NCBI GenBank assembly: GCA_001829415.1
Contig: MIBE01000050.1
Coordinates: 1 to 44,830 of the forward strand
Source: Spirochaetes bacterium GWF1_51_8
GTDB lineage: Bacteria; Spirochaetota; Brevinematia; Brevinematales; GWF1-51-8
DNA: 44,830 bases
Direction of reading: 5' to 3'
The notes beneath the pieces are model-generated. The model saw only the letters and a program-made list of their open reading frames with translations. It had not been told where the DNA came from and did no database searches. Below, in pieces: positions 25,030 through 41,398 of the stretch. The number at the start of each line of letters is the position of its first letter. Position 1 is the stretch's first letter. Position numbers and translations under genes: made by a program.

Positions 25030-27018
25030 ATGGGCGGAATTTATTTTCGAAGCGTTTTACTCTTAATACTCGCTCTTATACCTTTAGGGGCGGCCGCCGA
25101 AGAAAAGCCCCGCAAGGAAATCCTGATCCTTCATTCCTACCATCACGGTATGGAATGGACGGATAAGATTACGATGGGAATCCTCTCCACTTTTGCCAAT
25201 TCGCCCTATTCGGGCATTATGTTTCATATCGAATACCTCGATACGAAAAACTTTTTCAACGAGGCGTATCTCTCGCAGATTTTCCAGATATACAAGGCTA
25301 AATATAAAGACAAGAAGTTCGACGTCATCATCTCTTCCGACGACGACGCGTTCAATTTCCTTCTCAAGTATCACGAGGAGTTGTTCCCGAAAAGCCCCAT
25401 CGTGTTCTGCGGGGTGAATTACCTCGATCCGGCCATGCTCAGGAACAAACCGCTCTTTACGGGGATCGAGGAGAAATTCGACCTGAAAGGGAATATCGAG
25501 CTGATGATGAAACTTCACCCGCTCGCTCAGCGGATCATCGTGATCAACGACCAGACCGCCACGGGGAAGGGCAACGAGAAGCGGCTCGAGCAGATCATTC
25601 CGCTATTCAGCGATAAACTCCAGTTCGTGATCTACGACAACGAGACCAAAGCGAGTCTTCAGGTCAAGCTGAAAAAGCTATTCCCTACCGACCTTGTGCT
25701 TCTATTGACGTTCAACCGCGACAAGAACGGCGAGAATATCTCCTATCCCGAGAGCGCTTCGATGATCTCCAAAAACAGCCCGGTTCCCGTGTACGGGGTA
25801 TGGGATTTTTATATCGGTCATGGTGTTGTCGGCGGTCTGATGACAAGCGGTTTTCAGCAGGGCAAACTCGCGACCGAACTCGCGATCCGTATCCTCAACG
25901 GCGAGAGCGTCACGAACCTGCCGATCATTCAGGAAAACGCCAATCAATATATGTTCGACTACGAAGAGGTCATGCGTTACCTGATCTCCGTATCCGAAAT
26001 ACCCGAGGATAGTGTCGTGGTTAATCGCCCGTTGTCGCTCTATGAACAGAACAAACTGCTTGTCTGGGTGATTGCGGCGGGAGTAGGCGGATTGATCATC
26101 GCGCTCGTGATCCTTTACTTTGTCCAGCTTCGGACACGGAACGCCTATCTTCACAGCGAGGAGCGTTACAAGAAACTCGCACAGGCATCGTTCGAGGGGA
26201 TAGTCCTGCACGAGAACCTGAAGATCGTCGATGTCAACGACAGTTACGCAAAGATGACCGGATATAAGCCTCACGATATGATCGGGATGAGCGTCCTTCA
26301 GATCATCGCGCCCGAAGACCGTGTGCGCGTGGAAAAGCTGATTATCGAGGGTTACGATAAGCCGTTCGAGTCGAAACTCCAGCGCCGTGACGGTTCCAGT
26401 TTCTGGGCTGAGGCGAATGGCAGAAATATGAAGTACCAGGGGCGAGTCATCCGTGTGGCGACTGTCCGCGATATCACCGAGCAGAAAAAAGCGCAGGAAG
26501 CGATGAAGCGCTGGTTCGACTTCGAGAAGACCGTATCGTCTGTACTGGCATGCTTCATCGATATCACCGACATCGATGCCGCGATCAACGCGTCTTTGAC
26601 CGATCTCGGCAGTTTTACCGGGGCGGACAGGGTGTACGTATTCCTGATCGGTTCCGGCGGCGATACGTTCGACAATACCCATGAGTGGTGCGCCGACGGT
26701 GTACAGAAGGAGATCGATAACCTGAAGAACCTGCCTATCGATATGTTTTCATGGTGGCGGGATAAAACCCTGAAAGGCGAGGTCATTGTCATAGAAAATG
26801 TCGCCTTACTGCCGAATGAGGCGCAGGCCGAGAAAGATATCCTGACTAAGCAGGGAGTCAAGTCGCTTGTCGCTGTGCCGTTACGCAGGGGAAAAAATAT
26901 CGTCGGTTTTGTCGGCCTCGACAACAACAAGAACGAGGGCGTATTTAACGACGATTACGTGGCGATCCTGAGACTTTTCGCTGAGGTGTTGGGCAAGGCG
27001 ATGCTGAAGCTCAGTTAG
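25030..27018 (+). CDS. Membrane sensor: ABC-type binding domain, PAS and GAF, with no output domain
   Basis: The protein has 662 residues. A signal peptide is followed by an ABC substrate-binding-like domain (PF04392 type; ILILHSYHHGMEWTDKITMG, VIISSDDDAFNFLL, PIVFCGVNY; about 30-320). Then come a membrane helix (LLVWVIAAGVGGLIIALVIL), a PAS domain (about 375-490, ending VRDITEQKKAQ) and a GAF domain (about 495-660; SLVAVPLRRGKNIVGFVGL). It ends right after GAF: no HisKA, ATPase, GGDEF or receiver. Relatives with this N-terminus are usually histidine kinases or cyclases. It may be a truncated gene or a true receptor that signals by protein contact. The first serpin gene starts 22 bases later, so the two are probably co-transcribed. 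Confidence 0.88.
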   Translation: MGGIYFRSVLLLILALIPLGAAAEEKPRKEILILHSYHHGMEWTDKITMGILSTFANSPYSGIMFHIEYLDTKNFFNEAYLSQIFQIYKAKYKDKKFDVIISSDDDAFNFLLKYHEELFPKSPIVFCGVNYLDPAMLRNKPLFTGIEEKFDLKGNIELMMKLHPLAQRIIVINDQTATGKGNEKRLEQIIPLFSDKLQFVIYDNETKASLQVKLKKLFPTDLVLLLTFNRDKNGENISYPESASMISKNSPVPVYGVWDFYIGHGVVGGLMTSGFQQGKLATELAIRILNGESVTNLPIIQENANQYMFDYEEVMRYLISVSEIPEDSVVVNRPLSLYEQNKLLVWVIAAGVGGLIIALVILYFVQLRTRNAYLHSEERYKKLAQASFEGIVLHENLKIVDVNDSYAKMTGYKPHDMIGMSVLQIIAPEDRVRVEKLIIEGYDKPFESKLQRRDGSSFWAEANGRNMKYQGRVIRVATVRDITEQKKAQEAMKRWFDFEKTVSSVLACFIDITDIDAAINASLTDLGSFTGADRVYVFLIGSGGDTFDNTHEWCADGVQKEIDNLKNLPIDMFSWWRDKTLKGEVIVIENVALLPNEAQAEKDILTKQGVKSLVAVPLRRGKNIVGFVGLDNNKNEGVFNDDYVAILRLFAEVLGKAMLKLS

Positions 27019-27040
27019 ACCGCCCGGGGCAGGGAGACCG

Positions 27041-28138
27041 ATGATGGACAATTTATCCAAATCCGTGAATCCGTTCGCGTTAAAAATACTCCCGTTCGTA
27101 CTCGAGGGGGAAAGGGGAAACAGCCTCTTCTCGCCTCTCGGTTTATTTGTCATTCTTTGCTCGTTAGCCGAAGGGGCGTCGGGCGAAACAGCAAATCTCA
27201 TAAACTCGTTTCTCAATGCCGGGAAGCCCGGCGGTCTTGCCGAGGCTTATGGCGGATGGATCGAAGGTCTGCCCGCGCCGAACGAAACCCTTTTCCTGTC
27301 GCTCGCGAACATGGTGATGATCCGCGATGACTTCGATGTGACACGCGATTACCTCGAGCGGCTGACTGGCGAGTACGGTTTTTTTGCCGCAGTGAGGAAG
27401 TTCGATTCTGCCGCGCTTGATGAAATCAACAGATGGGTGGGCGAGACGACGCGGGGTAAAATCACCAAAATACTCGACAAGCTCCTTCCCGATGAAAAAA
27501 TGGTTCTCGCCAACTCGATATACTTTGTGGGGCAATGGGAAAGCCGTTTCCAGCACGAGGCGACGGAGAACGCCGATTTCCATTGCGCGGACGGCCGGAC
27601 GTCGAAAGTGCCGATGATGTTCCTACGGGCAAACCTGAGATACTACGGGTGCCCGCAATACCAGGCCGTCGACCTCGGGTATGTCGGCGGACGTTTTTCG
27701 ATGACAGCGGTACTGCCAGCCGACGGGGAAAGTCCCGATCAAGTGTTTGCCGGGTGTCTCGATCGGGGGATACCGTTCGGGAAAGAACCTGTCTATGGCG
27801 AACTGAGATTGCCGCGTTTCGAAATGGACGCCGGGATGGACGCCGGGGTAATTCTAAAAAAAGCGGGGCTGGAACAAATCTTTTCCGATCAGGCTGATTT
27901 CACCGGAATGAATCCCCGCGGAGATCTTAATGCCGGGCGGATGGTGCAGAAGTCGATCCTATCCGTGGACGAGTCCGGCACGATAGCGGCCTCAGTTACC
28001 GCCGCGACCATGCAGTTCAGGGGGATGACCCTGAAAAAGAGCGAGTTCACCATGACATGCGACCGGCCGTTCATCGCGGCCGTCTTCGATAATCAATACC
28101 GCCTTCCGATACTTTTCGCGAAAATCGCCGTACTATAA
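27041..28138 (+). CDS. Serpin, cytosolic, predicted Arg at P1
   Basis: This 365-residue serpin has no signal peptide. Visible family features: SLFSPLGLFVILCSLAEGASGET (helix A/B), IYFVGQWESRF (strand 3A region), the hinge VDESGTIAASVTAATM and the C-terminal FTMTCDRPFIAAVFD. Counting 17 residues from the P17 Glu, as in alpha-1-antitrypsin, puts P1 at Arg327 and P1' at Gly328 (QFR/GM). The small residues at P12-P9 (AASV) are those of inhibitory serpins. It should trap proteases that cleave after Arg. It lies in an apparent operon after the sensor and 20 bases before a second serpin. Target unknown; the caspase-like gene two genes on is a candidate. Confidence 0.93.
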   Translation: MMDNLSKSVNPFALKILPFVLEGERGNSLFSPLGLFVILCSLAEGASGETANLINSFLNAGKPGGLAEAYGGWIEGLPAPNETLFLSLANMVMIRDDFDVTRDYLERLTGEYGFFAAVRKFDSAALDEINRWVGETTRGKITKILDKLLPDEKMVLANSIYFVGQWESRFQHEATENADFHCADGRTSKVPMMFLRANLRYYGCPQYQAVDLGYVGGRFSMTAVLPADGESPDQVFAGCLDRGIPFGKEPVYGELRLPRFEMDAGMDAGVILKKAGLEQIFSDQADFTGMNPRGDLNAGRMVQKSILSVDESGTIAASVTAATMQFRGMTLKKSEFTMTCDRPFIAAVFDNQYRLPILFAKIAVL

Positions 28139-28158
28139 CCGGAATCCGAGGAGGGAAT

Positions 28159-29379
28159 ATGAAAAAATTATTTATAGCGGGCGTCAGCGCCGTTGTGTTT
28201 GCGTCGTTATTCACGGCTTGTCCCAACGGGTCTACGGTCGCGGCGGAATGGAAATCCCCGCAGCTGAATTATACGATACTGAACGGTCAAATGGATTTCT
28301 CGTGGAATGTCGTAAAGACCCTGCTGAATACACATAACGGGGCGAATTTCATCGTGTCGCCCGCGTCGCTTCTGTTTGCTCTGACATGCGTGTACGAGGG
28401 CGCGGACGGGGTCACGCTCGCCGAGATGAACAAGACCCTCGGTTTCGGCGGGTTTGCCTTGCCGGATATCCATACCAACATGGGCTACCTGATGGACTCG
28501 CTCATGACGAGCGACCCGTCGGTCATCCTCAATATCGCGAATTCGGTCTGGGCGGTGAAGGGCAACACGCTCAACAAGGCTTACCTTGAAAATGTCAGCC
28601 TGTTCTACGGCGCGAAGGCCGAGACGATCGATCCCGCCGACAGCGGGAACCTCGAGAAGATCAACGGCTGGGCGAACAAGGCCACCAAGGGTATGATCCC
28701 CAAGATACTGGATCAGCTTCCGGGAGACCTGAGTATTCTCGTGATGAACGCCGTCTACTTCAAGGGAACGTGGGCGAAGGAGTTCGATCCCGCGAAGACC
28801 TACGATAAAGATTTCACCTGCTTCGACGGCACGAAAAAGAAAGTGAAGATGATGAAAAAGTCGGCGAAGTATCATTATATGGAAAACAACGATTACCAGG
28901 CCGTAGTCTTGGAATATGGAAAGGGAAATATCGGGATGGCCGCAGTGCTGCCGGCGCCGGGAAAGACTATCGCCGGGACGCTCGGCGGGTTTGACGCCGC
29001 CAAGTGGAGCGGGATGCTTTCTCTGATGACCGCCGTACCGGTCAATCTGGAAATACCGCGTTTCTCTACCGAGTCCGGGTTCGAACTGGGCGAGATGCTG
29101 AAAACACTCGGGATGCCGGGTGCGTTCTCGCCGGGCGCCGGGTTTACGAAGATAGTCGATAACGGAACCTTGTTCATCACGAAAGTGCTCCAGAAGGCCA
29201 AGATCGAGGTGAACGAGAAGGGGAGCGAGGCCGCGGCTGTCACTGCGGTCATGATGACAAAAGGCGCGGCCAAGGATGATCAGGAATACAATTTCTTCTG
29301 CGACCGCCCGTTCTTCTACGCCATTTTCGACAGGACGACCGGAACTATCTTGTTCGCGGGCGTGATGGGGAATCCGTAA
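28159..29379 (+). CDS. Serpin lipoprotein, predicted basic P1/P2
   Basis: This 406-residue serpin has a lipoprotein signal (MKKLFIAGVSAVVFASLFTAC, lipid-linked Cys21), so it sits on a membrane face outside the cytoplasm. Serpin core motifs: NFIVSPASLLFALTCVYEGA, MNAVYFKGTWAKEFD, hinge VNEKGSEAAAVTAVMM, and FCDRPFFYAIFDRTTGTILFAG. Counting from P17 Glu gives Gly369 as P1 with Lys368 at P2; a one-residue-shorter loop would make Lys368/Gly369 the cleavage site. The hinge is of the inhibitory type. It follows serpin 1 by 20 bases, and the caspase-like lipoprotein gene lies immediately downstream, so inhibitor and potential target share a compartment. Confidence 0.93.
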   Translation: MKKLFIAGVSAVVFASLFTACPNGSTVAAEWKSPQLNYTILNGQMDFSWNVVKTLLNTHNGANFIVSPASLLFALTCVYEGADGVTLAEMNKTLGFGGFALPDIHTNMGYLMDSLMTSDPSVILNIANSVWAVKGNTLNKAYLENVSLFYGAKAETIDPADSGNLEKINGWANKATKGMIPKILDQLPGDLSILVMNAVYFKGTWAKEFDPAKTYDKDFTCFDGTKKKVKMMKKSAKYHYMENNDYQAVVLEYGKGNIGMAAVLPAPGKTIAGTLGGFDAAKWSGMLSLMTAVPVNLEIPRFSTESGFELGEMLKTLGMPGAFSPGAGFTKIVDNGTLFITKVLQKAKIEVNEKGSEAAAVTAVMMTKGAAKDDQEYNFFCDRPFFYAIFDRTTGTILFAGVMGNP

Positions 29380-29389
29380 GAGATTCTTT

Positions 29390-29418
29390 TTGACAAATCC
29401 TCATGAAGCTTATATCAT
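29390..29418 (+). promoter_or_regulatory. Predicted promoter of the caspase-like gene
   Basis: TTGACA at 29390-29395, a 17-base spacer and TATCAT at 29413-29418. GAGGAGG precedes the ATG at 29453. The protease gene can thus be expressed separately from the serpins. Confidence 0.65.
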
Positions 29419-29452
29419 CTATCGACAACGGATTTCATCCGAGGAGGATTCG

Positions 29453-30832
29453 ATGCTGAAAAGGTGTGTGTATCTATTTATCGGTTTAGCGCTTATGACA
29501 GTGCTGGGCGGATGTCCCGGCGGGATGAAGCCGAAGGCGGGCGGCAGCTCGGTCCTCAAGGCCGTCCTCATCATGGAAGACGATTATGACGATCCCGGCT
29601 TGAACAACATCGCGGACAGTGTACGCGCCGACTTCTCCTATATCACGAAATTCCTCGATGTCCTCGAAAAGAACGATATTATCAATGTCGATAAGATCGT
29701 GATCCGAGGTTCCGAAGCCACAAAAGACAATATTATGAACGTCCTCAAGAAGCTCAAGCTGAACAAGAACGACGTCCTGATGGTCTATTTCTCGGGGCAT
29801 GGCGGGATGGAAGGCGGGAAGCTTTTCCTTGAAACTTCCGATCTGGAACAAATCTACCGTTCGGAACTCGCTAAGGTGGTCGAGTCGAAGGACGCGAAAC
29901 TGAAGCTCGTCTTCACCGACGCATGCAGCAGTTCTATCGACGGGCTGATCGCAGTGAAAACGCTCGGCGGCCTGACTAAGGCTAATAAGCAGAAAGCGCT
30001 GGTCGAAATCTATAAGAACCTTTTCCTGAACTACGAGGGGACGCTTTATATGACCGCCGCCTCGGAGGGCGAATACGCGTGGTCGGGCGACCGGGGCGGC
30101 GCGTTCACCGAAGCCCTGATCTACGAGACGTTACTCCAGAACCCGAAGCCCACATGGGAAGAGGTCTGCAAGTCCGCGAAGGTTAAAACGCAGGATAAGT
30201 TCAAGAAGATGATCAGCATGGGGCTGATTGATCCATCGACGCTGAAAGATATGAAGAAGCAGGGCATCAAGAACCAGTCCCCCAAGACTTATTCCATGCC
30301 GAGCCTGAAAGGTAGCGTGACTGTCGACGATGACAAAATAGACGAGTATGAGGATGTGGATAACGCCGTAGATACGGAAATCAAGCTCAAGAATATCACG
30401 GGCGACGAGGTGGCGGTCTATCTCGATAAAAATACTTCCGAGGAAGATTGGGACTTCTCGAACACCGAAGAGATCATCCTCGATTCCGGCGATTCCACGA
30501 CACTGAAAGGGGATAACGATAAGATCGTCCTTTTCTTTATTCTCAACGATGAAGAAGGCAATTTCTTCGAACTCTCCGCCGGAGATTACGTGATCGATTA
30601 TGTGAAAAAGAAAGAACTGGGCATCTTCTATGACGAGGATAATAAAGATCAGGACTCCGACGAGAGCGACTGGTGGGTGTGGGACGATGTCGACGATGTC
30701 GACGAGAACAACGACGAGATCGACGAGATCGATAATGACGACCGCTGGAATTTTGACAAAGACGACTATGAGAAAAACGATGACGACGACGAATCCGACT
30801 CAAGCGACAAAGACCATTTCTTCGGTAAATAG
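29453..30832 (+). CDS. Caspase-like (C14/metacaspase-type) lipoprotein with acidic C-terminus
   Basis: The protein has 459 residues from ATG 29453 (GAGGAGG upstream; an earlier in-frame start lies in the promoter). The lipoprotein signal ends at LMTVLGGC. The caspase-hemoglobinase fold shows the catalytic His116 in MVYFSGHGGMEG and Cys158 in LVFTDACSSSIDG, with preceding strand SVLKAVLIMEDDYDD. A middle beta region follows (about 290-390), and the last about 70 residues are extremely Asp/Glu-rich (DDVDDVDENNDEIDEID), possibly Ca2+-binding or an autoinhibitory tail. It should be exposed on the outer or periplasmic face. Two serpin genes precede it directly. Cleavage specificity (Arg/Lys versus Asp) cannot be read with certainty. 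Confidence 0.88.
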   Translation: MLKRCVYLFIGLALMTVLGGCPGGMKPKAGGSSVLKAVLIMEDDYDDPGLNNIADSVRADFSYITKFLDVLEKNDIINVDKIVIRGSEATKDNIMNVLKKLKLNKNDVLMVYFSGHGGMEGGKLFLETSDLEQIYRSELAKVVESKDAKLKLVFTDACSSSIDGLIAVKTLGGLTKANKQKALVEIYKNLFLNYEGTLYMTAASEGEYAWSGDRGGAFTEALIYETLLQNPKPTWEEVCKSAKVKTQDKFKKMISMGLIDPSTLKDMKKQGIKNQSPKTYSMPSLKGSVTVDDDKIDEYEDVDNAVDTEIKLKNITGDEVAVYLDKNTSEEDWDFSNTEEIILDSGDSTTLKGDNDKIVLFFILNDEEGNFFELSAGDYVIDYVKKKELGIFYDEDNKDQDSDESDWWVWDDVDDVDENNDEIDEIDNDDRWNFDKDDYEKNDDDDESDSSDKDHFFGK

Positions 30833-31010: not shown

Positions 31011-31460
31011 TTATTCCTTGCCGGGCGACATTTCCATCCGTATAATGCTGGGCTTGAAGCCCTGCCGTTCCCAGAAACGGAAACCTTCGTTATCGGCCTC
31101 GGAAATATCGATCACGAGCGAAGACTGCTTGGGGAGATAGTTTCCCGCCAGTTCCGCGAACACGGCCTCGGGTACTCCGGGAAGATTGTATCCCGGACGG
31201 ATATAGAATTCGTAAAGGTGGGTCTTCATCGAGTCCATGTTCTCCGGGTCGACCTCGTCGTAGTAGGCGGCGTATCCGATAGTCTGCTCGCCCTGTTCGA
31301 ACACGATCACGCTTCTGCCGGACATAATCCAGCCGCGCAAGAGCTTTTCGATCAGCGTCTTTTTATCGTCGAAATCTTCAGCCGGATCGAAGCCTTCCGC
31401 GCGAATCGCGGCCAGGTACGGCGCGTCGCTTATTCTTGCGTATCTAAGTTTGGTATTCAT
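31011..31460 (-). CDS. GNAT-family N-acetyltransferase
   Basis: A 149-residue protein with GNAT-like order: N-terminal MNTKLRYARISDAPYLAAIRAEGF, strand RSVIVFEQGEQTIGYAAYYDE, LYEFYIRPGYNLPGVPEAVFAEL (acetyl-CoA pocket region, weakly conserved) and the closing DISEADNEGFRFWERQGFKPSIIRMEM, which is the typical C-terminal N..A..FYEk.GF segment. The acceptor substrate is unknown. It is 137 bases downstream of the MBL hydrolase gene on the same strand. Confidence 0.8.
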   Translation of the reverse strand: MNTKLRYARISDAPYLAAIRAEGFDPAEDFDDKKTLIEKLLRGWIMSGRSVIVFEQGEQTIGYAAYYDEVDPENMDSMKTHLYEFYIRPGYNLPGVPEAVFAELAGNYLPKQSSLVIDISEADNEGFRFWERQGFKPSIIRMEMSPGKE

Positions 31461-31597: not shown

Positions 31598-32419
31598 TTA
31601 ATGTCCGGATTCCATGCCCGCGAAAACCGCCCGTTGGAGTTCCAAAAGTTCGTCGAAACTATGCGCGTCGATTGCCTCGTGGGACGGCAGGATGACGAGC
31701 GACGGGTCGTGGTCGAGCCATGCGCGTAGTATGACAATCGTTTCGATATACGCATCGGGGATATCGGCGGTATGATACGGGGGATAGAACAGCCCGGCAT
31801 ACCCCTCGCAGATATCGCCCGCGAAAAGCAGACGGTGTTCGTCGAGATCGACGAGGTACGAGACGCATCCGGCGGTATGCCCCGGGGTCAGCAATGCGGT
31901 TACGCCGGGAACACCCGGGATTTGCGCCGAGGGGAAAGGTAGTTCAGCGCGATGGAAATCCTCTTCTCTCAGCGGAGTGAGCGTCATGCTGTTAAATAGC
32001 CCTTTCCGGTAACCGTCACGGCGGCTTAACGGGCGCATCGCTTTTTCGATCTCGCTCTCGTACGCGATGAGCATATCGGGACTGATCTGCTTAAGGTTGC
32101 CGCAATGATCGGAATGGAGATGGGTGAAGAGTACCGCGGTTTTACTGCTACGTCGCGCGAATTCCCCGCGCGCGGAATAGGCGATGGGGAAGTAACGCAT
32201 CTCGCGCGAGGGGCCCATCGGGTAACGGCGGGAATCGAGTCCGCTGTCGATATATACGGTCATACCGTCGAAATCGATCCGGAAGATGTTCACCGGGATA
32301 TTGACCGTGCCGTCAGGCGAGAGGCCGAGAAAGGAAAGCCCGGCGGGGCTGAGATACTCGTCCCGCCGGATTGTTAGTTTTCCCGTATCGATAGCGGAAA
32401 TTGCCGGGATTGTTTTCAT
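31598..32419 (-). CDS. Metallo-beta-lactamase-fold hydrolase
   Basis: The protein has 273 residues from the ATG at 32419 (MKTIPAISAIDTGKL). An upstream extension is rejected because it overlaps the preceding gene's coding end. The metal-binding residues are in FTHLHSDHCGNL (HxHxDH), LTPGHTAGC, LFAGDICEG and LPSHEA. The layout resembles AHL-lactonase/quinoprotein-type MBL hydrolases, but the substrate is unknown. Only 5 bases separate it from the stop of the lipoprotein paralogue at 32425, so it is the distal gene of that minus-strand operon. Confidence 0.88.
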   Translation of the reverse strand: MKTIPAISAIDTGKLTIRRDEYLSPAGLSFLGLSPDGTVNIPVNIFRIDFDGMTVYIDSGLDSRRYPMGPSREMRYFPIAYSARGEFARRSSKTAVLFTHLHSDHCGNLKQISPDMLIAYESEIEKAMRPLSRRDGYRKGLFNSMTLTPLREEDFHRAELPFPSAQIPGVPGVTALLTPGHTAGCVSYLVDLDEHRLLFAGDICEGYAGLFYPPYHTADIPDAYIETIVILRAWLDHDPSLVILPSHEAIDAHSFDELLELQRAVFAGMESGH

Positions 32420-32424: not shown

Positions 32425-32919
32425 TTATATCTCCAGAATAATTTGATAAACCTCGGAAAGGGATTTCCCCGTGGAAATCGCTCCATAGAGCGCGATCAGT
32501 TTGCCCGGATCGTTCTTGACAGCGGAAATAGCATCCGGTTCGCACCCGTTTTTCTCTACGGCCAGATTGAATAATTCACTATTCAGGTAGTCGATGGAAT
32601 GTATTGCCGATTCTGGTGTCTCCGCTGAAATCTGGTTTTCGAGATACCCGTGCATAATTATTCCTGAAATACTGGCGATATCGAGTTCATAGATTTTCGA
32701 GAGCATATCGAGATTATGCCCGGTCATTCGGGCGGCCTCGTCTATCAGGAGACTCACCTCGATTTGAGCCTCTTTTTTCTGGTCTTCGGGACTGCACGAT
32801 GAACTGGATGCCTTGGATGATGAGCCTGAAGAAACCCCCAAACCGGAAAAATCTCCGACACATGAAACAAGCAGAAATGAAAGAAACGGAATTATATAGA
32901 AAAATACTTTCTTTAACAT
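32425..32919 (-). CDS. Lipoprotein of the IDEAAR/GHNLDMLSKIY paralogue family (copy 1)
   Basis: The protein has 164 residues. A lipoprotein signal ends in FLLVSC (Cys20), followed by a short Ser-rich linker and SCSPEDQ. Then comes an about 110-residue domain shared with the two upstream genes: EVSLLIDEAARMTGHNLDML followed by SKIY, then a variable helical region and a tail around VKNDPGKLIALYGAI. I do not recognise this family. As a lipoprotein its domain should lie outside the cytoplasm. RBS AGGAGG precedes the ATG; a hairpin at 32975-32999 separates it from copy 2. It is followed after 5 bases by the MBL hydrolase gene. Confidence 0.8.
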   Translation of the reverse strand: MLKKVFFYIIPFLSFLLVSCVGDFSGLGVSSGSSSKASSSSCSPEDQKKEAQIEVSLLIDEAARMTGHNLDMLSKIYELDIASISGIIMHGYLENQISAETPESAIHSIDYLNSELFNLAVEKNGCEPDAISAVKNDPGKLIALYGAISTGKSLSEVYQIILEI

Positions 32920-32974
32920 ACGCGCCTCCTGAAATACTCGACATACATTACGGATAAGGTTGATTTTGAGGAAA

Positions 32975-32999
32975 CGGCGGGGCGGGATTTGCCCCGCCG
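32975..32999 (-). terminator. Hairpin between paralogue copies 2 and 1
   Basis: 9-bp perfect stem CGGCGGGGC/GCCCCGCCG with a 7-base loop, followed on the minus strand by TTTCCTC. It lies 13 bases after the stop of copy 2 and could terminate or attenuate transcription into copy 1 and the MBL gene. Confidence 0.65.
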
Positions 33000-33011
33000 G
33001 GAAATTCGAGT

Positions 33012-33617
33012 TTAAAAAGCAAAGACCATACTGAAAATCTCGCCGGGGGTTTTCTGGTCGGCAATTGCGTCCATCAGTTTCCGGATTTTCTCCGGGTCGT
33101 TCTTCAAAGCCGAGATGATCTTGGGCTCGCCGCCGTTCACCTCGACCGACTTCTTCAATAGCGCCTTGCTCAGGTAATCCTTTGACAGAATAGCGGATTC
33201 CTGCGAGAAGGCGGAAACCTGATCGCCCAGTACACCTTCCATGATGACGTTCGCGACGGTCTGGCAGTCGAGATCGTAGATTTTGGAAAGCATGTCGAGA
33301 TTGTGGCCGTTCATCCGCGCGGCCTCGTCGATCAAGATACTGACTTCGACCTGCGGAGTGGCCTGAGGCTGGGCGGGACTACAGCTTGTGCTGATACCCC
33401 AAATCGCGAGGCCTATCGCCGCCGCGAGAACGACGGCACCGATGACGATCGTGATACTGGAATCGCCCGACGCGTTACCGGAAGAGTTTCCCGATGACTG
33501 GGCAGAGGAGTTTCCCGATGTGGCGAAAATATTGAAAATAGAAGCGTGCGCGGCGGAGAATACCGACGCATTCAAAAACAAAACGACTAACCCTGACGAT
33601 ATGCACTTCTTGAACAT
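33012..33617 (-). CDS. Membrane protein of the IDEAAR/GHNLDMLSKIY paralogue family (copy 2)
   Basis: The protein has 201 residues from ATG 33617 (GGAGG upstream; the TTG four codons earlier is rejected). A signal sequence (MFKKCISSGLVVLFLNASVFS) is followed by a Ser/Asn-rich segment, a hydrophobic helix (ITIVIGAVVLAAAIGLAIWG), SCSPAQPQ and the shared domain (EVSILIDEAARMNGHNLDML). The domain ends around MDAIADQKTPGEIFSMVFAF, a close match to copy 3. Compared with copy 1 it has the extra helix before the same SCSP motif. Function unknown; neighbours are only its paralogues and an MBL hydrolase. Confidence 0.78.
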   Translation of the reverse strand: MFKKCISSGLVVLFLNASVFSAAHASIFNIFATSGNSSAQSSGNSSGNASGDSSITIVIGAVVLAAAIGLAIWGISTSCSPAQPQATPQVEVSILIDEAARMNGHNLDMLSKIYDLDCQTVANVIMEGVLGDQVSAFSQESAILSKDYLSKALLKKSVEVNGGEPKIISALKNDPEKIRKLMDAIADQKTPGEIFSMVFAF

Positions 33618-33671
33618 ACGCACCTCCAAAACAGTTTTATTCTTTTGAAACTCCTTTCATCCAGAATAAAA

Positions 33672-34382
33672 CTAAAAAGCGAAAACCAAACTCATGATTT
33701 CGCCGGGACTTTTATGTTCCTGATAAGCCTGATATATCTTTTTCGACATCGCGGGATTCTTCATCATCTTACCGATTACCGTCTGATCCTCGCCGTTGAC
33801 CTGAGCGGATTTCTCGATCAAGGCCTTGCTGAGATAATCCATGGAATTGCACGCGGAGTCAGGGGTGATCGCGGACACCTTGTTATCAAGATACCCCTGC
33901 ATGATCACCTCGGCGATAACATTTTTCTCGAGGCTGTAGATTTTCGACAGCATATCGAGGTTATGCCCGTTAATACGCGCCGCCTCGTCGATCAGGAGAG
34001 TGACCTCAGCCTGGGGATTGGGTTTGTTAAACGAACCGGTGGTGGAACTGAATCCCCATGCCGCCAAACCGATCGCCGCCGCTACAACGAGGAAGATGAA
34101 TACCCCTGTCAGCCATTGCTCGGAGTTCGAGGCCTGGCTCGACGAGTCGCTGGACGCGTCGGACGAGGCCTGGAAGGAATAGTCGCTCGACGACTGCGTC
34201 GACGATTCGCTCGAAGACTTGGATGACGATTCAATCGAGGACTGCGAGGAATTCTGCATCGACGATTCGCTGGAAGCGTTTGCCGAGGATTCGAATATGC
34301 TGAAACCCGCGGCGAACACGGTTCTCAACAGCACCATATTCGATAACGAGGCGATCAGAAATACGGATATTAGCTTTTTCAT
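33672..34382 (-). CDS. Ser-rich membrane protein of the IDEAAR/GHNLDMLSKIY paralogue family (copy 3)
   Basis: The protein has 236 residues. A signal sequence is followed by about 60 residues made almost wholly of Ser with Gln, Glu, Lys and Asp (SSQSSIESSSKSSSESS), then a membrane helix (WLTGVFIFLVVAAAIGLAAWG) and the shared domain (EVTLLIDEAARINGHNLDML, then SKIYSL). The Ser-rich length differs strongly between the copies, as expected of a low-complexity stalk. It is the first gene of the minus-strand paralogue run, with GGGAGG before the ATG and only 54 bases before copy 2. Family not recognised. Confidence 0.78.
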   Translation of the reverse strand: MKKLISVFLIASLSNMVLLRTVFAAGFSIFESSANASSESSMQNSSQSSIESSSKSSSESSTQSSSDYSFQASSDASSDSSSQASNSEQWLTGVFIFLVVAAAIGLAAWGFSSTTGSFNKPNPQAEVTLLIDEAARINGHNLDMLSKIYSLEKNVIAEVIMQGYLDNKVSAITPDSACNSMDYLSKALIEKSAQVNGEDQTVIGKMMKNPAMSKKIYQAYQEHKSPGEIMSLVFAF

Positions 34383-34457: not shown

Positions 34458-35015
34458 TTACCAGTTTGTCAATAAGACGAGAGCCGGCGGCAGATGCGGA
34501 AACTCGCCGGAAATCAGCATCTTGTACCTGAAATAAATATACCCTTCCGTGTCGCCCGCGATCCGGTTCTTGTTCGATAACAGAAGCTCCTTCCATTTCA
34601 TGGGATAAGCCCTGTTCGCGAGCCAGTCCTTCGAGTTCAACGAGAGTATAAACAGGTCGGGATTCTCTAAGAAGAACCCGAGCAGGCGGGTATCCTCCTC
34701 CGGGGAATTGTAGAAGTAGAGGAGTTCCAATGCACCGAGAAATCCCTTCAGGTCGTTGGTGCCGGATTTCCCGAGATAGCCGATGATCTTTTCCAGTCCG
34801 GCGCTTTTGTCCGGCAAAAGATGGGCTTTCACCGTCTCCTTCGCCCGGGCGACAATTCCGATCAGTACGGCGTCGCCGTTAGTCCGGAGCGCGAATTCCT
34901 CGGGCCCCATCGGAAAACCGGCGTTCTTGAACTCCCAAACCGCGCCGTAATCGTTGCCGGACGCGCAGGATATGCTCAACACTGCGATAAACGATATCAG
35001 GAAAATGTTTTTCAT
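34458..35015 (-). CDS. Lipoprotein of unknown function
   Basis: A 185-residue protein whose signal ends in VLSISCAS (Cys17), a relaxed lipobox. The mature part is mostly alpha-helical (LEKIIGYLGKSGTNDLKGFLGALELLYF, EEDTRLLGFFLENPDLFILSL), perhaps HEAT-like, and ends YKMLISGEFPHLPPALVLLTNW. No family recognised. It is divergent from the DUF4105/barrel gene with a 120-base gap, and its stop codon is followed at once by the palindrome copy A. Confidence 0.7.
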   Translation of the reverse strand: MKNIFLISFIAVLSISCASGNDYGAVWEFKNAGFPMGPEEFALRTNGDAVLIGIVARAKETVKAHLLPDKSAGLEKIIGYLGKSGTNDLKGFLGALELLYFYNSPEEDTRLLGFFLENPDLFILSLNSKDWLANRAYPMKWKELLLSNKNRIAGDTEGYIYFRYKMLISGEFPHLPPALVLLTNW

Positions 35016-35135
35016 ATCCGCCCTAAATCTTTAGTACATCATTCTATCCTGCGTGACGGTTGTTGTCAAGGAACGAACTGAAACCGTTCTTGCCAAATAA
35101 TCGCGGATAGGTTATGATAACACGAGGAGCCGTTT

Positions 35136-37865
35136 ATGCGAAGAGCGCCTATGCTGATTCTTGTCATACTTAGTTTTGCTTTACCCGCACCGGCATTTTC
35201 GCAGGAAAAGCCGATTACCAATATTCCGCCGCTTGTCCTGATCGACAATCCGCTTATGCCGTGGACAGAAGCCGAGATCGTCGCGGTCGCGGGATTGATA
35301 GCGTTACTGCCCTCGGAATACGCCGCGATGACAGCGATCAAGCTCAAGAAAACAATCAAGCCGCCCGCGCCGGGGCATTCGTGGAAAGACAAGTGCGTCC
35401 TCGATCTCGGGAGCCGCACAATCGTACTGAACCTTGTCTACGAACTGCCGTTACCGTGCACCGAGACCAATCTTTACCTCGGCAGTTTTTACAGCCTCAG
35501 TATCGACAATCCGCTTCATCTCACGAACAGTCCCGACAACCAGAGCTATTTCGACTGGAGCCAGCCCGTCCCGTACACGATCACGGACGACCCGTCGGCG
35601 GTCGTCCCGACTGTCCAGCGGCTGCTCCTCTACGCCCTGACCCGTTTTCTCGATAACGGGAAACACCTGAGCGACCTCGAGGAGTGGAGGACGATCGGGC
35701 GGTTTACGGGGCTGGACCTGCTCGGGAATTTGTCCGAGAACCTGAAGGTGGAAGGCTTTGCCTGCAAGGAGGGGATGGCCAATCCTGCGGAAGACCTCGC
35801 GACATTCGCGGTGGAGTTCTTCCTGCCGTCGGCCTATCCCGATCCGTCGATGCACCTGATCAACCGGCTGCCCGCGAAGTACGCTTATTTCAGCTCGCTC
35901 TTCCAATCCAAGCCCGACCCCCAGAAGGGGCTGGGTTCCGGGTACTGCTACTCGAACTGGATCGATCCGGCGGATGTCGACCATATCGAAATCCTATACG
36001 CCACGCCCGTCTCGTCGTCGATAGCGAACCTCGCCGGGCATATCGTGCTCCTGATCCAGAAAAAGGGCGAGGGCGATGTTCTCGGCATATCAAAATGCCT
36101 GAGTTTCGTCGCGAACATCTACCATTACGGGAAACTGCGCGACGAGGGGCTGACATTCGCGTTCCGGGGGATTTTCGGCGGGTATCCGTCGATGATCCAG
36201 GAGGAAACTCTCGCCGAAGTCGTCTACAGGGCGCGTTATATAGAAAACCGCAATCTCTACCGAATCAAGCTCGTGCTCTCGAAGGAGGAGATCGTGTACC
36301 TGATCCAGCGGCTGTGGGAGATGCGGAATACTTACAGCACGTCGTACCTTTTCTTCAACCGTAACTGCGGCACACTGATGGTGGATATGATCAACGAGGT
36401 TTTTCCGGCGGGGGGGAAGGTGCAGATGGGCGAGATGTTCGGGATGCCGAACAACCTCTGCGCGAAGCTCTATGCCGCGAACAGGCTCGGCGGATTTCTC
36501 TACCCGGAATACTGGAACAGCGTCGCGATAGCCCGTTTCGCGGCATGGCGGAATAATACGATTTTCCCGCAAATCCTTACCGCGCTCGCGGGGATGAAAA
36601 CCTTGCTTCCGGAAGACGTATTGCGGAAATTCGCCGGGCTCTTTGTCACTGCGGTTTCGCGTGAAACGAATATCGATAAAGCCTCGGCATACAAGGAGCT
36701 TTCCGGGTATTACCTCGCGCTTTCCGGGCTGCCGGTATTCCAGAACGACCCGGAGCGGAAGAAGGAGTTCCTCGAGATCGGGCGGCTTCTGCTGAAGTAC
36801 CTGATCTACGCTCTCGACAGGGAACGTTACCTCGGCCCGCCCGACGTCCTGACCAAGGCAAAGAACAATCCCGAGATTGACGCGGTCATCAAGGGGATTT
36901 TCAGCATACGGATGTACCTCCTGCAGAACGGCGCGGACGACCCCGATCCCGCCGAGGAGATACAGCAGGAGTTCGAGGACTATGCTCAGGCCTACCGTGA
37001 GAAGGGCTCGTATGTCTCCTGCGCGAACCCGCTCAGGGTGACTCTCGGCTCGTTCGCCTATCACGGCACGCAGTATGTCTCGGCGGGCTTCATGATGGGT
37101 ATCCAGTCGCAGAAGATGGGCGAGCACGGGCTTTTCGCGATGCGGAACGATGTCCTGCTCGAAGTGGCGACCTACGAGTTCATCCCCTACGCCTCGTGGG
37201 ATACGGTCGCGGGCGGGTTTACTAACGGCGGAATCGGGTGGATACACAAGCTGACCTTCCTCAAGCTCGAACAGGCCATCGGCGGGAACGATGTCGATTA
37301 CAACGGATGGTTCGTGCCGTCGTTCGGGATCACGCTGTGGGAAGCGGCCTATATGCCGGGTCTTGGCGCGAAGAGCGATATCAACGTGTTCGATTTCAGC
37401 CTCGGGTTCTGCCTGTTCGAAGCGAACAATTTCGAGCATTATATCAACCTGCTCGCGGGGGCGGGCTTCTCCTACCTTGTGGACGATAGCGACGTCCTGA
37501 CAAGGAGTATCGACGTAAAAGCGAAGCTGGATGGCAAATTCTACCTTTTCGGCAATTCGCAGAACATCCTGCGTTTCCAGTCGACTCTCGTGTTTCGCTT
37601 CGGGTACTTTTTCGTGCCGTACTGGGGATTTGCACCGGCAACCCCCGCAGTATGGCGTTCGGAGGTTTCGCTCAGCTTCGGGCTCGGTAAGTTCAGGGAC
37701 AATGTGCTGACATTGGGCGGGTACTATGAGCATAAATGGAACGAAGGCCCGGGACAGGCCGGATTTTCGGGCGGCGAGACGAGTTGGGGGATTTTCGCCT
37801 CGATGAAATGGGATAACTTCACGCTCGGGATCGATCTTTACCGGATTCTCAATTACGTATTCTGA
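35136..37865 (+). CDS. Exported DUF4105-like protein with C-terminal beta barrel
   Basis: The protein has 909 residues. A signal peptide ends at APAFSQ. The central region matches DUF4105 (Lnb N-terminal-like, NlpC/P60-related) proteins: ANLAGHIVLLIQ with its His and TSYLFFNRNCGTLMVDMI with the NC motif, the probable catalytic His and Cys. N-terminal to that, DLATFAVEFFLP and nearby segments suggest an extra helical domain. The last about 270 residues alternate as beta strands (TLGSFAYHGTQYVSAGFMMG ... IDLYRILNYVF) and end in Phe, fitting an outer membrane barrel. So a Cys-peptidase-like domain may be anchored by its own barrel. RBS GAGGAG. Substrate unknown. Confidence 0.78.
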   Translation: MRRAPMLILVILSFALPAPAFSQEKPITNIPPLVLIDNPLMPWTEAEIVAVAGLIALLPSEYAAMTAIKLKKTIKPPAPGHSWKDKCVLDLGSRTIVLNLVYELPLPCTETNLYLGSFYSLSIDNPLHLTNSPDNQSYFDWSQPVPYTITDDPSAVVPTVQRLLLYALTRFLDNGKHLSDLEEWRTIGRFTGLDLLGNLSENLKVEGFACKEGMANPAEDLATFAVEFFLPSAYPDPSMHLINRLPAKYAYFSSLFQSKPDPQKGLGSGYCYSNWIDPADVDHIEILYATPVSSSIANLAGHIVLLIQKKGEGDVLGISKCLSFVANIYHYGKLRDEGLTFAFRGIFGGYPSMIQEETLAEVVYRARYIENRNLYRIKLVLSKEEIVYLIQRLWEMRNTYSTSYLFFNRNCGTLMVDMINEVFPAGGKVQMGEMFGMPNNLCAKLYAANRLGGFLYPEYWNSVAIARFAAWRNNTIFPQILTALAGMKTLLPEDVLRKFAGLFVTAVSRETNIDKASAYKELSGYYLALSGLPVFQNDPERKKEFLEIGRLLLKYLIYALDRERYLGPPDVLTKAKNNPEIDAVIKGIFSIRMYLLQNGADDPDPAEEIQQEFEDYAQAYREKGSYVSCANPLRVTLGSFAYHGTQYVSAGFMMGIQSQKMGEHGLFAMRNDVLLEVATYEFIPYASWDTVAGGFTNGGIGWIHKLTFLKLEQAIGGNDVDYNGWFVPSFGITLWEAAYMPGLGAKSDINVFDFSLGFCLFEANNFEHYINLLAGAGFSYLVDDSDVLTRSIDVKAKLDGKFYLFGNSQNILRFQSTLVFRFGYFFVPYWGFAPATPAVWRSEVSLSFGLGKFRDNVLTLGGYYEHKWNEGPGQAGFSGGETSWGIFASMKWDNFTLGIDLYRILNYVF

Positions 37866-38000: not shown

Positions 38001-38010
38001 ACGTTTAGTG

Positions 38011-38036
38011 AACCGTCCTGAAAGGGGCGGTTTTTT
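38011..38036 (+). terminator. Intrinsic terminator
   Basis: 8-bp stem AACCGTCC/GGGCGGTT (one G:T pair) followed by TTTTTT. It lies between the inverted repeat and the YjbR promoter and would end transcripts from the DUF4105/barrel gene. Confidence 0.7.
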
Positions 38037-38063
38037 GTTTTTTCAGCCCCTTCACGGTATAAT
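38035..38063 (+). promoter_or_regulatory. Predicted promoter of the YjbR-family gene
   Basis: TTGTTT at 38035-38040 (overlapping the terminator's T-run), a 17-base spacer and perfect TATAAT at 38058-38063. Confidence 0.5.
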
Positions 38064-38091
38064 ATCCCGGAGTATGAAAGCGGAGGATAAG

Positions 38092-38454
38092 ATGGACTTG
38101 CCGGAATTGCGCGATATCTGCCTGAGTCATCCTGGGAGCGCCGAAGGGATGCCGTTCGGGCCGGAAGTGCTGGTCTACAAGGCCGGATCGAAGATTTTCG
38201 CCATCCTCTCGGAGACGGACGGGGTCGCGAGTATCTCGCTCAAGTGCGATCCGTATATCGCCCAGCATCTCCGTGAGACCTATCCGTCGGTACAGCCGGG
38301 TTATCACCTGAATAAGAAGCATTGGAATACGATAGTGTCGGACGGTACGGTGCCGGATGAGGAGATAGTGAAGATGATCGGTCATTCCTACGGCCTGATC
38401 CTGAAAAGCCTGCCCCGCGCCGAACGGGAAAAAATACCGCGTTCGGGAAAATAA
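38092..38454 (+). CDS. MmcQ/YjbR-family protein
   Basis: A 120-residue protein from ATG 38092, chosen over 38074 because GGAGG (38082-38087) precedes it. The sequence follows the YjbR/DUF419 pattern: LRDICLSHPGSAEGMPFGPEVLVYKAGSKIFAIL, SISLKCDPYIAQHLRETYPSVQPGYHLNKKHWNTI, then a helix ending LILKSLPRAER. The family has a DNA-binding-like fold (CyaY-like) but no settled function. It stands alone between a terminator and the convergent PilZ-like gene. Confidence 0.9.
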   Translation: MDLPELRDICLSHPGSAEGMPFGPEVLVYKAGSKIFAILSETDGVASISLKCDPYIAQHLRETYPSVQPGYHLNKKHWNTIVSDGTVPDEEIVKMIGHSYGLILKSLPRAEREKIPRSGK

Positions 38455-38466
38455 TCCTTCCGTTCG

Positions 38467-38952
38467 TTATTTCGCCTGCCCCTTATCGAAAAAAAACTCT
38501 ACTCCGAGGAATTTCTTATGCCTATCTTTGTAGTAACGGATAATTTTTCCGCGGAATGTGTTTTCCGGTGTCGGGTTTTCGGAGAGGTAACGGAATTCCG
38601 CGATTTTACCTTTATCTTCTTTATGAATCTCACCCCGGTAGTGCTTCTCCACTTCAAGAAATCCTCCGTTCGCTGAAAGATTTCTGATTAAACAGATTAA
38701 AGTCCGGCTTTCCAATTTCATTTTAACAAACCGGAAAACTTGAAAACTCTGGTTTGTACCATTTTCCTCAACCGGGAGGATTATTTGACTGTTAATCTCC
38801 GATTCATCAGAGGAAAGCGAGAAGTGAGGGCTTGTAACAGCATTTTCTACGAAAGAGTTGATACTTTGGCTTTTCCTCTCCTGCTCCATCGAGGGGGCGA
38901 AGCGGAAAACATCACTTTTTTCACCGAAAACGAGCGCTTTTAGAATATCCAT
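38467..38952 (-). CDS. PilZ-like domain protein
   Basis: The protein has 161 residues from ATG 38952 (AGGAGGAGACG leader; the ATG seven codons earlier is less likely). After about 60 variable residues comes a PilZ-like beta barrel: FVKMKLESRTLICLIRNLSANGGFLE holds the D/N-x-S-x-x-G element, and FRGKIIRYYKDRHKKFLGVEFF is the usual closing pair of strands. The N-terminal RxxxR of cyclic-di-GMP binders is not clear (Arg residues precede NLSANGG), so ligand binding is uncertain. A cyclic-di-GMP reader would fit the HD-GYP gene at 6006. Confidence 0.6.
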   Translation of the reverse strand: MDILKALVFGEKSDVFRFAPSMEQERKSQSINSFVENAVTSPHFSLSSDESEINSQIILPVEENGTNQSFQVFRFVKMKLESRTLICLIRNLSANGGFLEVEKHYRGEIHKEDKGKIAEFRYLSENPTPENTFRGKIIRYYKDRHKKFLGVEFFFDKGQAK

Positions 38953-39045
38953 CGTCTCCTCCTTTGCGTGCATTATTATGTCCGGGAGAAGTATAAATAT
39001 TGTCGGTTAAGGAGGAATTAGGATGGGGTTAAATGTTGAAAAAGG

Positions 39046-39843
39046 TTATTTCGATGTCTGATGAGCGGTCTGGTCTTCGCCGGGGAATTTGCCGGATTTC
39101 ACTTCGCCGATATACGCAGAAACAGCCTCGCTGAACGGCAGATAGAGATCGGCATAGCGCTTATTGTGCTTGAAGTTCGTGTCCGGGTCGAGACCGAGCA
39201 TGTCGGCGAGCACAAGCACCTGGCCGTCGGTAAAACGTCCGGCGCCGATCCCGATAGTCGGCACGCCGACTGAGTCGGTGACAGCCTTCGCGGCCTCTTC
39301 GGTCGTCCCCTCGATCACCATCGCGAATACCCCGGCTTTTTCCAGCGCGGCGGCGTCGTCGATCAGCTCCTTCGTTTCGCTGTCGGTCTTACCCGCGATC
39401 CGGTAGCCCGAACGGTTCACCGACTGCGGGAGAAGCCCGATATGCCCCATCACCGGGATGCCGAGGCCGGTCATCGCGCGGATAAGTTCGGAGCGTTCCT
39501 CGCCGCCCTCGAGCTTGACGGCGTTCGCGCCGGCTTCTTTCAGGAAACGCCCGGCGTTACGAATCCCTTCTTCCATCGACGCGCCGTAGCTCATGAACGG
39601 CATATCCGCGACCACCAGCGACTGCGGCGCGCCCCGGCGTACCGCATAGGTGTGATAGATCATCTGGTCGACAGTGACCGGCAACGTGTTGGGATAGCCC
39701 ATGATCGCCGTGCCGAGGGAATCGCCGACAAGGATGATATCCGTTCCGGCTTTTTCGAGTATCTTCGCGGAAAGGAAATCGTAGGCCGTGAGCATCGCGA
39801 GCTTGGTTTTTCCTTTTAAGGAGAGTATCTTCGATACCGTCAA
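39046..39843 (-). CDS. panB: 3-methyl-2-oxobutanoate hydroxymethyltransferase
   Basis: PanB makes 2-dehydropantoate from 3-methyl-2-oxobutanoate and methylene-tetrahydrofolate, the first step of pantothenate synthesis. The family signatures are complete: AMLTAYDFLSAKILEKAG, ILVGDSLGTAIMGYPNTLPV (metal-binding Asp), VVADMPFMSYG, AVKLEGG, VMGHIGLLPQS and TIGIGAG. TTG at 39843 is chosen because it gives 265 residues, the normal PanB length, and follows the upstream gene by 16 bases; longer readings overlap that gene. No panC or panD is in the window. Confidence 0.94.
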   Translation of the reverse strand: MTVSKILSLKGKTKLAMLTAYDFLSAKILEKAGTDIILVGDSLGTAIMGYPNTLPVTVDQMIYHTYAVRRGAPQSLVVADMPFMSYGASMEEGIRNAGRFLKEAGANAVKLEGGEERSELIRAMTGLGIPVMGHIGLLPQSVNRSGYRIAGKTDSETKELIDDAAALEKAGVFAMVIEGTTEEAAKAVTDSVGVPTIGIGAGRFTDGQVLVLADMLGLDPDTNFKHNKRYADLYLPFSEAVSAYIGEVKSGKFPGEDQTAHQTSK

Positions 39844-39859
39844 AATATTTATCCCGCCC

Positions 39860-40351
39860 TTACTTCGATTTTTTGGAAATGATCTTCCATTGCCCGTCGA
39901 ACTTGCGGAGGAGATAATCGACATAGACTTCGGAATAGGGTTTGTTCTGCGTCCCCGGCTCGTTGACAGGCTTGCCGGGCTTGAGAGAATAGTCGATCTT
40001 CATGCGCCATTTCGTATAGACGATCGCGAGGATATCGTTGTTGTTGGTATAGACTTCCTCTTTCAGTATCTCGAAGAATTCGATCTTCTGCGATTCCTGC
40101 ATAATGATCTTCAGCGCCTTAGCGTTCGTCTTGATCGTATCGATCGTCATCTGTGTGCGTTTCTTCTCGGATAGCTCGGTGATAGTCAGGAGCTGTTCGA
40201 AATCGCACATCGCGAGCATTTTATTCGCGGCTTTGACTACGCTGGTGGCGCTTGTGCCGTCATAGGGTACGGCTTCTTTGATCTTCACGAAGGCGAGCGC
40301 CGGGAGCAATGCGACCGCGCCGAGTATAATAAATAGTTTCTTAAAATTCAT
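39860..40351 (-). CDS. Exported protein, possibly NTF2-like
   Basis: A 163-residue protein with a signal or anchor (MNFKKLFIILGAVALLPALAF), then a helix-rich region with ANKMLAMCDFEQLLTITEL and a beta-rich end (NDILAIVYTKWRMKIDYSL, DYLLRKFDGQWKIISK). The ending 'DGQWKII' with preceding strands is typical of DUF4878/SnoaL-type NTF2-like exported proteins. Function unknown. It is followed after 16 bases by panB, probably co-transcribed, and is divergent from the 40470 gene. Confidence 0.65.
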   Translation of the reverse strand: MNFKKLFIILGAVALLPALAFVKIKEAVPYDGTSATSVVKAANKMLAMCDFEQLLTITELSEKKRTQMTIDTIKTNAKALKIIMQESQKIEFFEILKEEVYTNNNDILAIVYTKWRMKIDYSLKPGKPVNEPGTQNKPYSEVYVDYLLRKFDGQWKIISKKSK

Positions 40352-40407
40352 TTTCCTCTCCTTATAACCTTTTCTGTATTCTATGTATCGAATTTATTAC
40401 CAAAAAC

Positions 40408-40436
40408 TTGATTTTTCAAGCGGGTAATTATAAAGT
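40408..40436 (+). promoter_or_regulatory. Predicted promoter of the SurA-N-like gene
   Basis: TTGATT at 40408-40413, a 17-base spacer and TAAAGT at 40431-40436; AGGAG precedes the ATG at 40470. Confidence 0.55.
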
Positions 40437-40469
40437 ATTAGACTGAAAATCACAAACTAGGAGTTTTGT

Positions 40470-41228
40470 ATGTCAGAGAGCAAGAATAACAATATGGTCT
40501 TATTTATCATTATCGCCTTCGTAGTCGGAATCGGCGCGGGGGCTGGAGGAATGATGCTGTTCGGGGGCGCGGGCGGGCCCGGCGGTGCTGTTAAATCAGA
40601 TAAAATTTATATCCATCTCGCCAAGGCTTCCGAAGTCGGAGCCGATTGGCTGGTGAAGATCGACGACTACGCGATCTCGAAGTCCGAATTTAACGACCTC
40701 TTCACCCTGATAAAGAGCACTTCGCCCCAGTTCCAGAATATCACTCCCGAACAGGACGCCCAGTTGAAGTACCAGTACTTCGAGAGCCTGATCGACGAGT
40801 TTATCGTTACTCTTCAAGCTGTCAACAAGGGCAATATTGATATCAAGACCGCGAACCTGCTGATCGATCAGTCGGCGCGCCAGTCGATCTACACCCTTTT
40901 CCTCAAGAACAATATGCCTATCGAAAGCAGTTTCAATCCTACCGAGCAGGAGATCGAAGCGTTTTACCAGCAGTATAAGGACCAGTTCAAGCAGTCCGGT
41001 ATGAACGCCGAACAGATCAAGCAGGTGAGTGTCGAGAATATTAAGAAACTCAAGCTCCAGCAGTGGATGATGAGTTTCGTGACCCATATCAAGGAAGGAT
41101 ATAAGATCGAACGCAACTTCGACGCCTTGAAGGAACTCGGCATCTCCGAGATGGGAATGGGCGGCGGAATGCCCGGCGGCCAGCTTCTTCCCGGACAGGG
41201 CGGAATGCAGCCTTTGCCTAACCAGTAA
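40470..41228 (+). CDS. Membrane-anchored SurA-N/PpiC-like chaperone without PPIase domain
   Basis: The protein has 252 residues. An N-terminal helix (MVLFIIIAFVVGIGAGAGG) anchors it with the rest outside. WLVKIDDYAISKSEFNDLF opens the typical SurA/PrsA N-domain, and helices such as QYFESLIDEFIVTLQAVNKGN and PTEQEIEAFYQQYKDQF follow. The parvulin domain is missing, and a Gly/Met/Pro-rich tail (GMGGGMPGGQLLPGQGG) ends the protein. It may act as a periplasmic holdase. A strong terminator follows. Confidence 0.7.
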   Translation: MSESKNNNMVLFIIIAFVVGIGAGAGGMMLFGGAGGPGGAVKSDKIYIHLAKASEVGADWLVKIDDYAISKSEFNDLFTLIKSTSPQFQNITPEQDAQLKYQYFESLIDEFIVTLQAVNKGNIDIKTANLLIDQSARQSIYTLFLKNNMPIESSFNPTEQEIEAFYQQYKDQFKQSGMNAEQIKQVSVENIKKLKLQQWMMSFVTHIKEGYKIERNFDALKELGISEMGMGGGMPGGQLLPGQGGMQPLPNQ

Positions 41229-41245
41229 GAAAAATTTGATATGAT

Positions 41246-41273: not shown

Positions 41274-41342
41274 ATTGACGTAGACGTTAAAGATTCTATT
41301 CCGTTTTTTACGCGCTGTTGAAATCGAACTTGTAATCCATGC

Positions 41343-41371: not shown

Positions 41372-41398
41372 GATTATATACGATAAGGAGGCAAGATT

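Follow-up and report, generated by a model that had tools for sequence, protein, structure and literature searches.

The window analysed here (a stretch of 44,830 nucleotides, positions 1 to 44,830 of contig MIBE01000050.1 from Spirochaetes bacterium GWF1_51_8) carries three tandem minus-strand genes at 32425-34382, which we call paralogues A, B and C after their order of transcription (A, then B, then C). They lie between a gene for a predicted lipoprotein and a gene for a metallo-beta-lactamase-fold hydrolase. The features of the region are listed below by coordinate.

31011..31460, minus: GNAT-like gene, below the Pfam cut-off; downstream after a 137 bp gap, operon membership unsure
31598..32419, minus: metallo-beta-lactamase-fold hydrolase (Lactamase_B, E 1e-8), its ATG 5 bp past C
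32425-32919, minus: paralogue C, 164 aa; lipobox LVSC, short Ser linker, without a second membrane helix; GGAGG precedes the ATG
32428..32775, minus: conserved domain of C (by alignment)
33012-33617, minus: paralogue B, 201 aa from the ATG; architecture as in A, with a shorter loop
33015..33362, minus: conserved domain of B, modelled with seven helices
33393..33449, minus: membrane helix of B (19-residue mean 2.61)
33672-34382, minus: paralogue A, 236 aa; signal-like segment, Ser-rich loop, membrane helix, domain; GGAGG precedes the ATG
33675..34022, minus: conserved domain of A (by alignment)
34059..34115, minus: membrane helix of A (19-residue Kyte-Doolittle mean 2.38)
34116..34310 (bounds approximate), minus: loop of A, acidic and rich in Ser, predicted to be extracytoplasmic
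34458..35015, minus: first operon gene, predicted lipoprotein, 185 aa, no family match
35041..35069, minus: promoter-like TTGACA-17-TAGAAT, an 11/12 consensus match, upstream of the lipoprotein gene
35136..37865, plus: divergent gene for an Lnb_N-domain protein, 909 aa (Lnb_N E 5e-20)

For paralogue B we take the ATG at 33617, which is preceded by GGAGG, as the start; the alternative listed TTG at 33629 (33012-33629, 205 aa) is less likely. The hydrolase likely starts at the ATG at 32419, the mechanically listed GTG at 32545 falling within paralogue C.

A search of the own genome with A recovered A itself (E 1.7e-143), B (E 4.2e-42) and C (E 1.6e-25), far above chance. The three are thus homologues, as an earlier note made from the sequence had claimed, and these three copies at the one locus were all that the search found. 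The core LIDEAARMNGHNLDMLSKIYDL is identical at 19 of 22 residues across A, B and C, in agreement with that note's count, and the domain that it put at about 110 residues is present in all three at ~115 residues. Within a domain alignment of 116 columns, 42 positions are identical across A, B and C. When the six relatives found in three congeneric genomes (two each from G001, G002 and G003) are added to make up the nine family proteins, 26 columns remain invariant, 17 of them within the first half.

AlphaFold modelled the B domain as seven helices (pLDDT 80.5, pTM 0.68), and the same seven helices were obtained for a divergent congener domain (pLDDT 74.1, pTM 0.66; residues 1-20 below 50). Both models were built on five sequences, and the mean pLDDT values of the five B-domain models were 80.5, 73.8, 51.2, 50.5 and 48.1, three of them near 50. 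The two halves of the domain match each other at an offset of 58 (columns 10-30 with 68-88) with a score of 25.2, the next of 81 offsets giving 14.7. This score was reached by 1 of 1000 column shuffles, and the repeat was weaker by hhalign (real score reached by 5 of 100 shuffles). It is likely that the domain arose by internal duplication, possibly of a three-helix unit of ~58 residues, but this is not proven because column shuffles do not preserve helix periodicity. The first unit carries an invariant polar set (D12, E13, H20, N21 and D23).

Ahead of the domain, all family proteins except C (8/9) follow one plan: Lys/Arg, a hydrophobic N-terminus, a Ser-rich loop, a second hydrophobic segment, a short linker and the domain. 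In these eight the loop measures 28-67 residues with 35-57% Ser (A, 47% over 67 residues; B, 35% over 28 residues) and a net charge of -1 to -7, the second segment has a mean hydropathy of 2.38-2.72 over 19 residues, and the stretch after the helix is less negative than the loop. When single-pass proteins are defined by two hydrophobic segments, the second with a mean hydropathy >1.6 over 19 residues, A, B and the congener paralogues (8/8) classify as predicted single-pass proteins with a signal peptide. Based on the two hydrophobic segments and the charge pattern, we predict that the loop lies outside and the domain in the cytosol, after one inner-membrane crossing that follows the signal peptide. 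This topology is read from hydropathy and charge only (positive-inside reasoning), and in the window's B the charge difference across the helix is almost nil.

Paralogue C departs from this plan. Its N-terminus, MLKKVFFYIIPFLSFLLVSC, is a hydrophobic segment that ends in the lipobox LVSC with Cys 20, which places it among predicted bacterial lipoproteins, defined here by a hydrophobic N-terminus that runs up to a lipobox Cys at about residue 20. Since the second segment is absent and the lipobox present, C would be a periplasmic lipoprotein with its domain outside. The earlier view that the N-terminal parts were replaced among the three therefore holds for the anchor of C; A and B share one architecture and differ in stalk length. 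Among the family, SCSP directly before the domain is common to B and C alone, the start regions of the two are nearly alike (GGAGG-x-GCGTATGTT), and C, a long branch, pairs with B in the domain tree (support 76/91, weak). For these reasons, C most likely represents a duplicate of B that lost the stalk and membrane helix. It keeps 26 of the 32 positions that are invariant in the other eight family proteins.

It could be argued that C shows the true side of the domain, which would then be exported in all three copies to the periplasm or surface (as an adhesin, structural or recognition protein), with the helix of A and B serving as an anchor after an odd insertion or as a buried assembly helix. 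The lipobox and well supported start of C, together with its retained core, are in line with this, as are the lipoprotein in the operon and its divergent orientation from an Lnb_N envelope protein. We nevertheless consider it rather unlikely, given that eight of the nine proteins have two hydrophobic segments, an acidic loop and a more positive C-side, that neither the family libraries nor the structure searches returned an adhesin-like fold or family, and that no diversifying selection was found. An exported role may apply to C alone, acting outside.

Selection was estimated by NG86 for four orthologue pairs between congeners. For the domain, dN was 0.03-0.18 vs a dS of 0.35-0.96 (dN/dS about 0.09-0.20), and for the stalk-and-helix N-part dN was 0.015-0.19 (dN/dS about 0.04-0.17); in comparisons involving the window's own copies, dS was near or at saturation. 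Both parts are under purifying, not diversifying, selection in the orthologues. The resemblance to surface adhesins, colony-specific recognition or immunity proteins drawn in the earlier note is not favoured because of this selection and of the domain side predicted for 8/9 proteins (cytosolic); the operon also includes a cytosolic-looking hydrolase in 4/4 genomes. An immunity or self-recognition cassette diversified against neighbours would account for tandem paralogues with altered N-termini, but appears extremely unlikely when a two-copy set is kept under purifying selection in three congeners, the paralogues have no PADLOC match (0 families for A, B and C at E<=0.1) and no toxin gene was recognised beside the cassette.

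The family was unrecognised in the first reading of the sequence and this was borne out by our searches. The paralogues had no match at the curated cut-off in Pfam or NCBIfam, nor at E<=0.03 in PHROGs, and PDB sequences gave no good match for the domain. The two seven-helix models were also without a significant structural match: the best Foldseek E-values were 2.0 and 1.3 against PDB and 0.8 against BFVD (none at 0.001), and the VIA structure search returned none at Z 5 for either model (best Z 4.8 over 69 residues, rmsd 3.8, with the SigE N-terminal domain; Z 4.6 over 62 residues, rmsd 2.8, with pyruvate phosphate dikinase). A likeness to the activator of 2-hydroxyisocaproyl-CoA dehydratase was local only (PDB hmmsearch E 0.26) and was set aside. 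The family was not named in the literature matches listed on DUF3015, Brevinematales/GWF1, serine-rich spirochete proteins, RsgI or Lnb/DUF4105.

Two known families were weighed as possible relatives. DUF3015 (PF11220) comprises small exported proteins that are common in Spirochaetota. With these the paralogues share small size, occurrence in spirochaetes, sometimes a tandem arrangement and a short local motif, in that DEAARMNGHNLDMLSKIYDLD resembles the DUF3015 motif DIAxGxGExLxxLAxLMxV. Full-length profiles align at this motif (P 0.016), which we count as weak since the domain alone gave 0.22. That domain-only comparison was made with the DUF3015 C-terminal half, and 22 and 11 of 100 column shuffles reached the score; the DUF3015 profile used 9 rows of 35 matches. 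PF11220 matched none of A, B and C above the gathering score and none of the nine domains at E<=10, and had 0 matches in the own genome (G000) vs 31 of 198 phylum genomes having DUF3015. In addition, DUF3015 proteins are exported and lack both the stalk and the second membrane helix of A/B, their Cys/ATTN motifs are absent from the paralogues, and the similarity stays under every threshold. A DUF3015 identity is unsupported by family search and profile comparison, and it is very unlikely that the paralogues are very divergent DUF3015 relatives. In three other Spirochaetota genomes (G067, G132 and G159; loci L027, L033 and L056), DUF3015 genes are themselves found in tandem, as pairs.

The second candidate was a membrane-bound transcription regulator, with helices 1-3 of the domain forming a DNA-binding helix-turn-helix. 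The spacing of these helices is compatible with it, and XRE-type proteins made up many of the Foldseek rows, all non-significant (E 0.8 or more, low TM), but these XRE rows from the first model were not repeated with the second. A, B and C had no match to XRE/HTH_3 (PF01381) above the gathering score and no HTH family at the cut-off, and the five PF01381 matches listed for the own genome all lie on other contigs. The score of a profile comparison with 18 XRE domains was reached by 13 of 100 shuffles, 20-mer HTH scores were -9.6 to -19.8 for the domain vs 32.6 to 53.2 for true XRE proteins, and C would be exported. With family search, shuffled profile comparison and 20-mer scores all failing to support an XRE-HTH identity, we give this reading a very slim chance. 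As a separate observation, the 18-domain XRE set compared with the DUF3015 C-terminal half gave a profile score reached by 0 of 100 shuffles (hhalign P 0.011).

Among 41 genomes searched (the own genome and relatives), the family was present in four, all of one genus and comprising 4/4 genomes of that genus. The profile search that the earlier note had proposed was run with 3-row and 9-row profiles over 392 phylum genomes and returned those same four only, with none credible elsewhere. A match in G137 (E 3.8e-4) was rejected because its frame of 437 residues begins like an ATPase (GRRRIGKTT) and has neither a signal peptide nor the domain layout. Six further phylum matches (E 0.006-0.03) were obtained, where chance alone would give about 20 at E 0.05 over the 392 genomes. 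A scan of the species-representative collection, which used two exact peptide patterns and so reaches close relatives only, gave one locus, on a contig of Spirochaetes bacterium GWF1_49_6. The viral_contigs collection held 49 stretches with a pattern, none confirmed as relatives, and plasmid and phage collections had no relatives. Among the genomes searched, the family is confined to a single genus. One-genus orphan families are a very common category; a survey (PMC12236494) gives the remaining share of orphan genes in Spirochaetes as 16% (N=5735). The domain family is real, conserved and unnamed, ordinary among orphan families, with the apparent side change of C as its curious feature.

The surrounding gene block was surveyed for copy number and neighbours, as had also been proposed, and two or three paralogues with the hydrolase were found in 4/4 congeners. 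All four blocks share one gene order, in which the lipoprotein gene comes first, two paralogues follow and the hydrolase comes next, the Lnb_N gene being transcribed divergently; the third paralogue, C, occurs in the window only, the other three congeners carrying two. The gap from the last paralogue to the hydrolase is 5, 2, 12 and 2 bp. A lipoprotein orthologue (41-43% identical) opens the block in G001, G002 and G003, and among 18 class genomes the Lnb_N protein and the operon lipoprotein had matches in the four congeners only. The hydrolase has an orthologue in 4/4 congeners and none at E<=1e-25 in the 292 others of 296 phylum genomes, a restriction judged at that threshold for a protein whose fold family is common. 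Its HLHSDH motif is intact, later metal motifs are present and the N-terminus has no apparent signal peptide. Promoter-like sites numbered 10 in the region vs a shuffle mean of 4.8 (sd 2.5) by consensus match only, and a terminator scan of the region did no better than shuffles.

Elsewhere in the window, positions 25030-30832 encode a sensor that combines ABC_sub_bind, PAS and GAF domains, two serpins back to back (27041-28138 and 28159-29379) and, at 29390-30832, a lipoprotein that is caspase-like (Peptidase_C14) and has a tail rich in Asp; the serpins and the caspase-like lipoprotein could possibly form a protease and inhibitor set. A similar serpin pair occurs in loci L014 and L015, with a caspase-like gene adjoining in L014 (by reading). 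Downstream of the block (38008-43669) are YjbR, PilZ-like, panB and dnaA genes, and a dnaA-like gene is also near the block in L014 and L015.

At the level of sequence, the homology of the paralogues, the conserved order, the near-zero gap to the hydrolase gene and the purifying selection are well established, while any link between the domain and the hydrolase, or another partner, is one that we infer. We tentatively propose, as the best supported of the readings though still only a possible one, that A and B are bitopic proteins of a genus-restricted envelope operon, in which a lipoprotein and a metallo-hydrolase are encoded together with two or three of these small membrane paralogues. After one inner-membrane crossing, their flexible acidic Ser-rich stalk would lie outside and the helical domain in the cytosol. 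Together with the operon's lipoprotein, the stalk may report on the envelope or tether to it, while the cytosolic domain may bind a partner at the membrane. The coupled hydrolase would be the best candidate because of the gene order, and its place or activity might be set in this manner. Paralogue C could serve on the outside, as a binding partner or as a modulator. That C carries the same core on the opposite side of the membrane is odd for a strictly cytosolic partner. One bolder version would be that the duplication of B into C carried a genus-specific domain across the inner membrane, from its inner to its outer side. A single binding module would then serve both faces, for instance within a transmembrane complex whose matching inner and outer components gate the coupled hydrolase; we regard this as quite improbable. 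If the predicted topology is true, the locus would offer a small and clear example of a new family of envelope proteins confined to a single spirochaete genus, in which one duplicate seems to have switched sides of the membrane. It could also serve as a test bed for the origin of orphan domains (with a possible internal duplication) and for membrane-stalk control of a soluble hydrolase.

With regard to known systems, lactonase-like metallo-beta-lactamase-fold hydrolases (NF047925, NF047979) resemble the coupled gene far below cut-off, a likeness that concerns the partner gene product and not the paralogues. The RsgI-type transmembrane anti-sigma factors (PMC12203970) are similar to A/B in that one membrane helix joins a cytosolic domain to a part outside the cytoplasm and in that they occur as several paralogues per genome, but their cytosolic domain is N-terminal with the sensor domain outside, an order that is reversed in A/B. 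Unlike in RsgI systems, no sigma gene was recognised beside A, B and C, and there was no sequence match. Yeast Wsc/Mid2-type wall sensors have a signal peptide, a Ser-rich outer stalk, one membrane helix and a cytosolic tail, as do A and B by prediction; coming from an unrelated organism, they provide an analogy of layout only.
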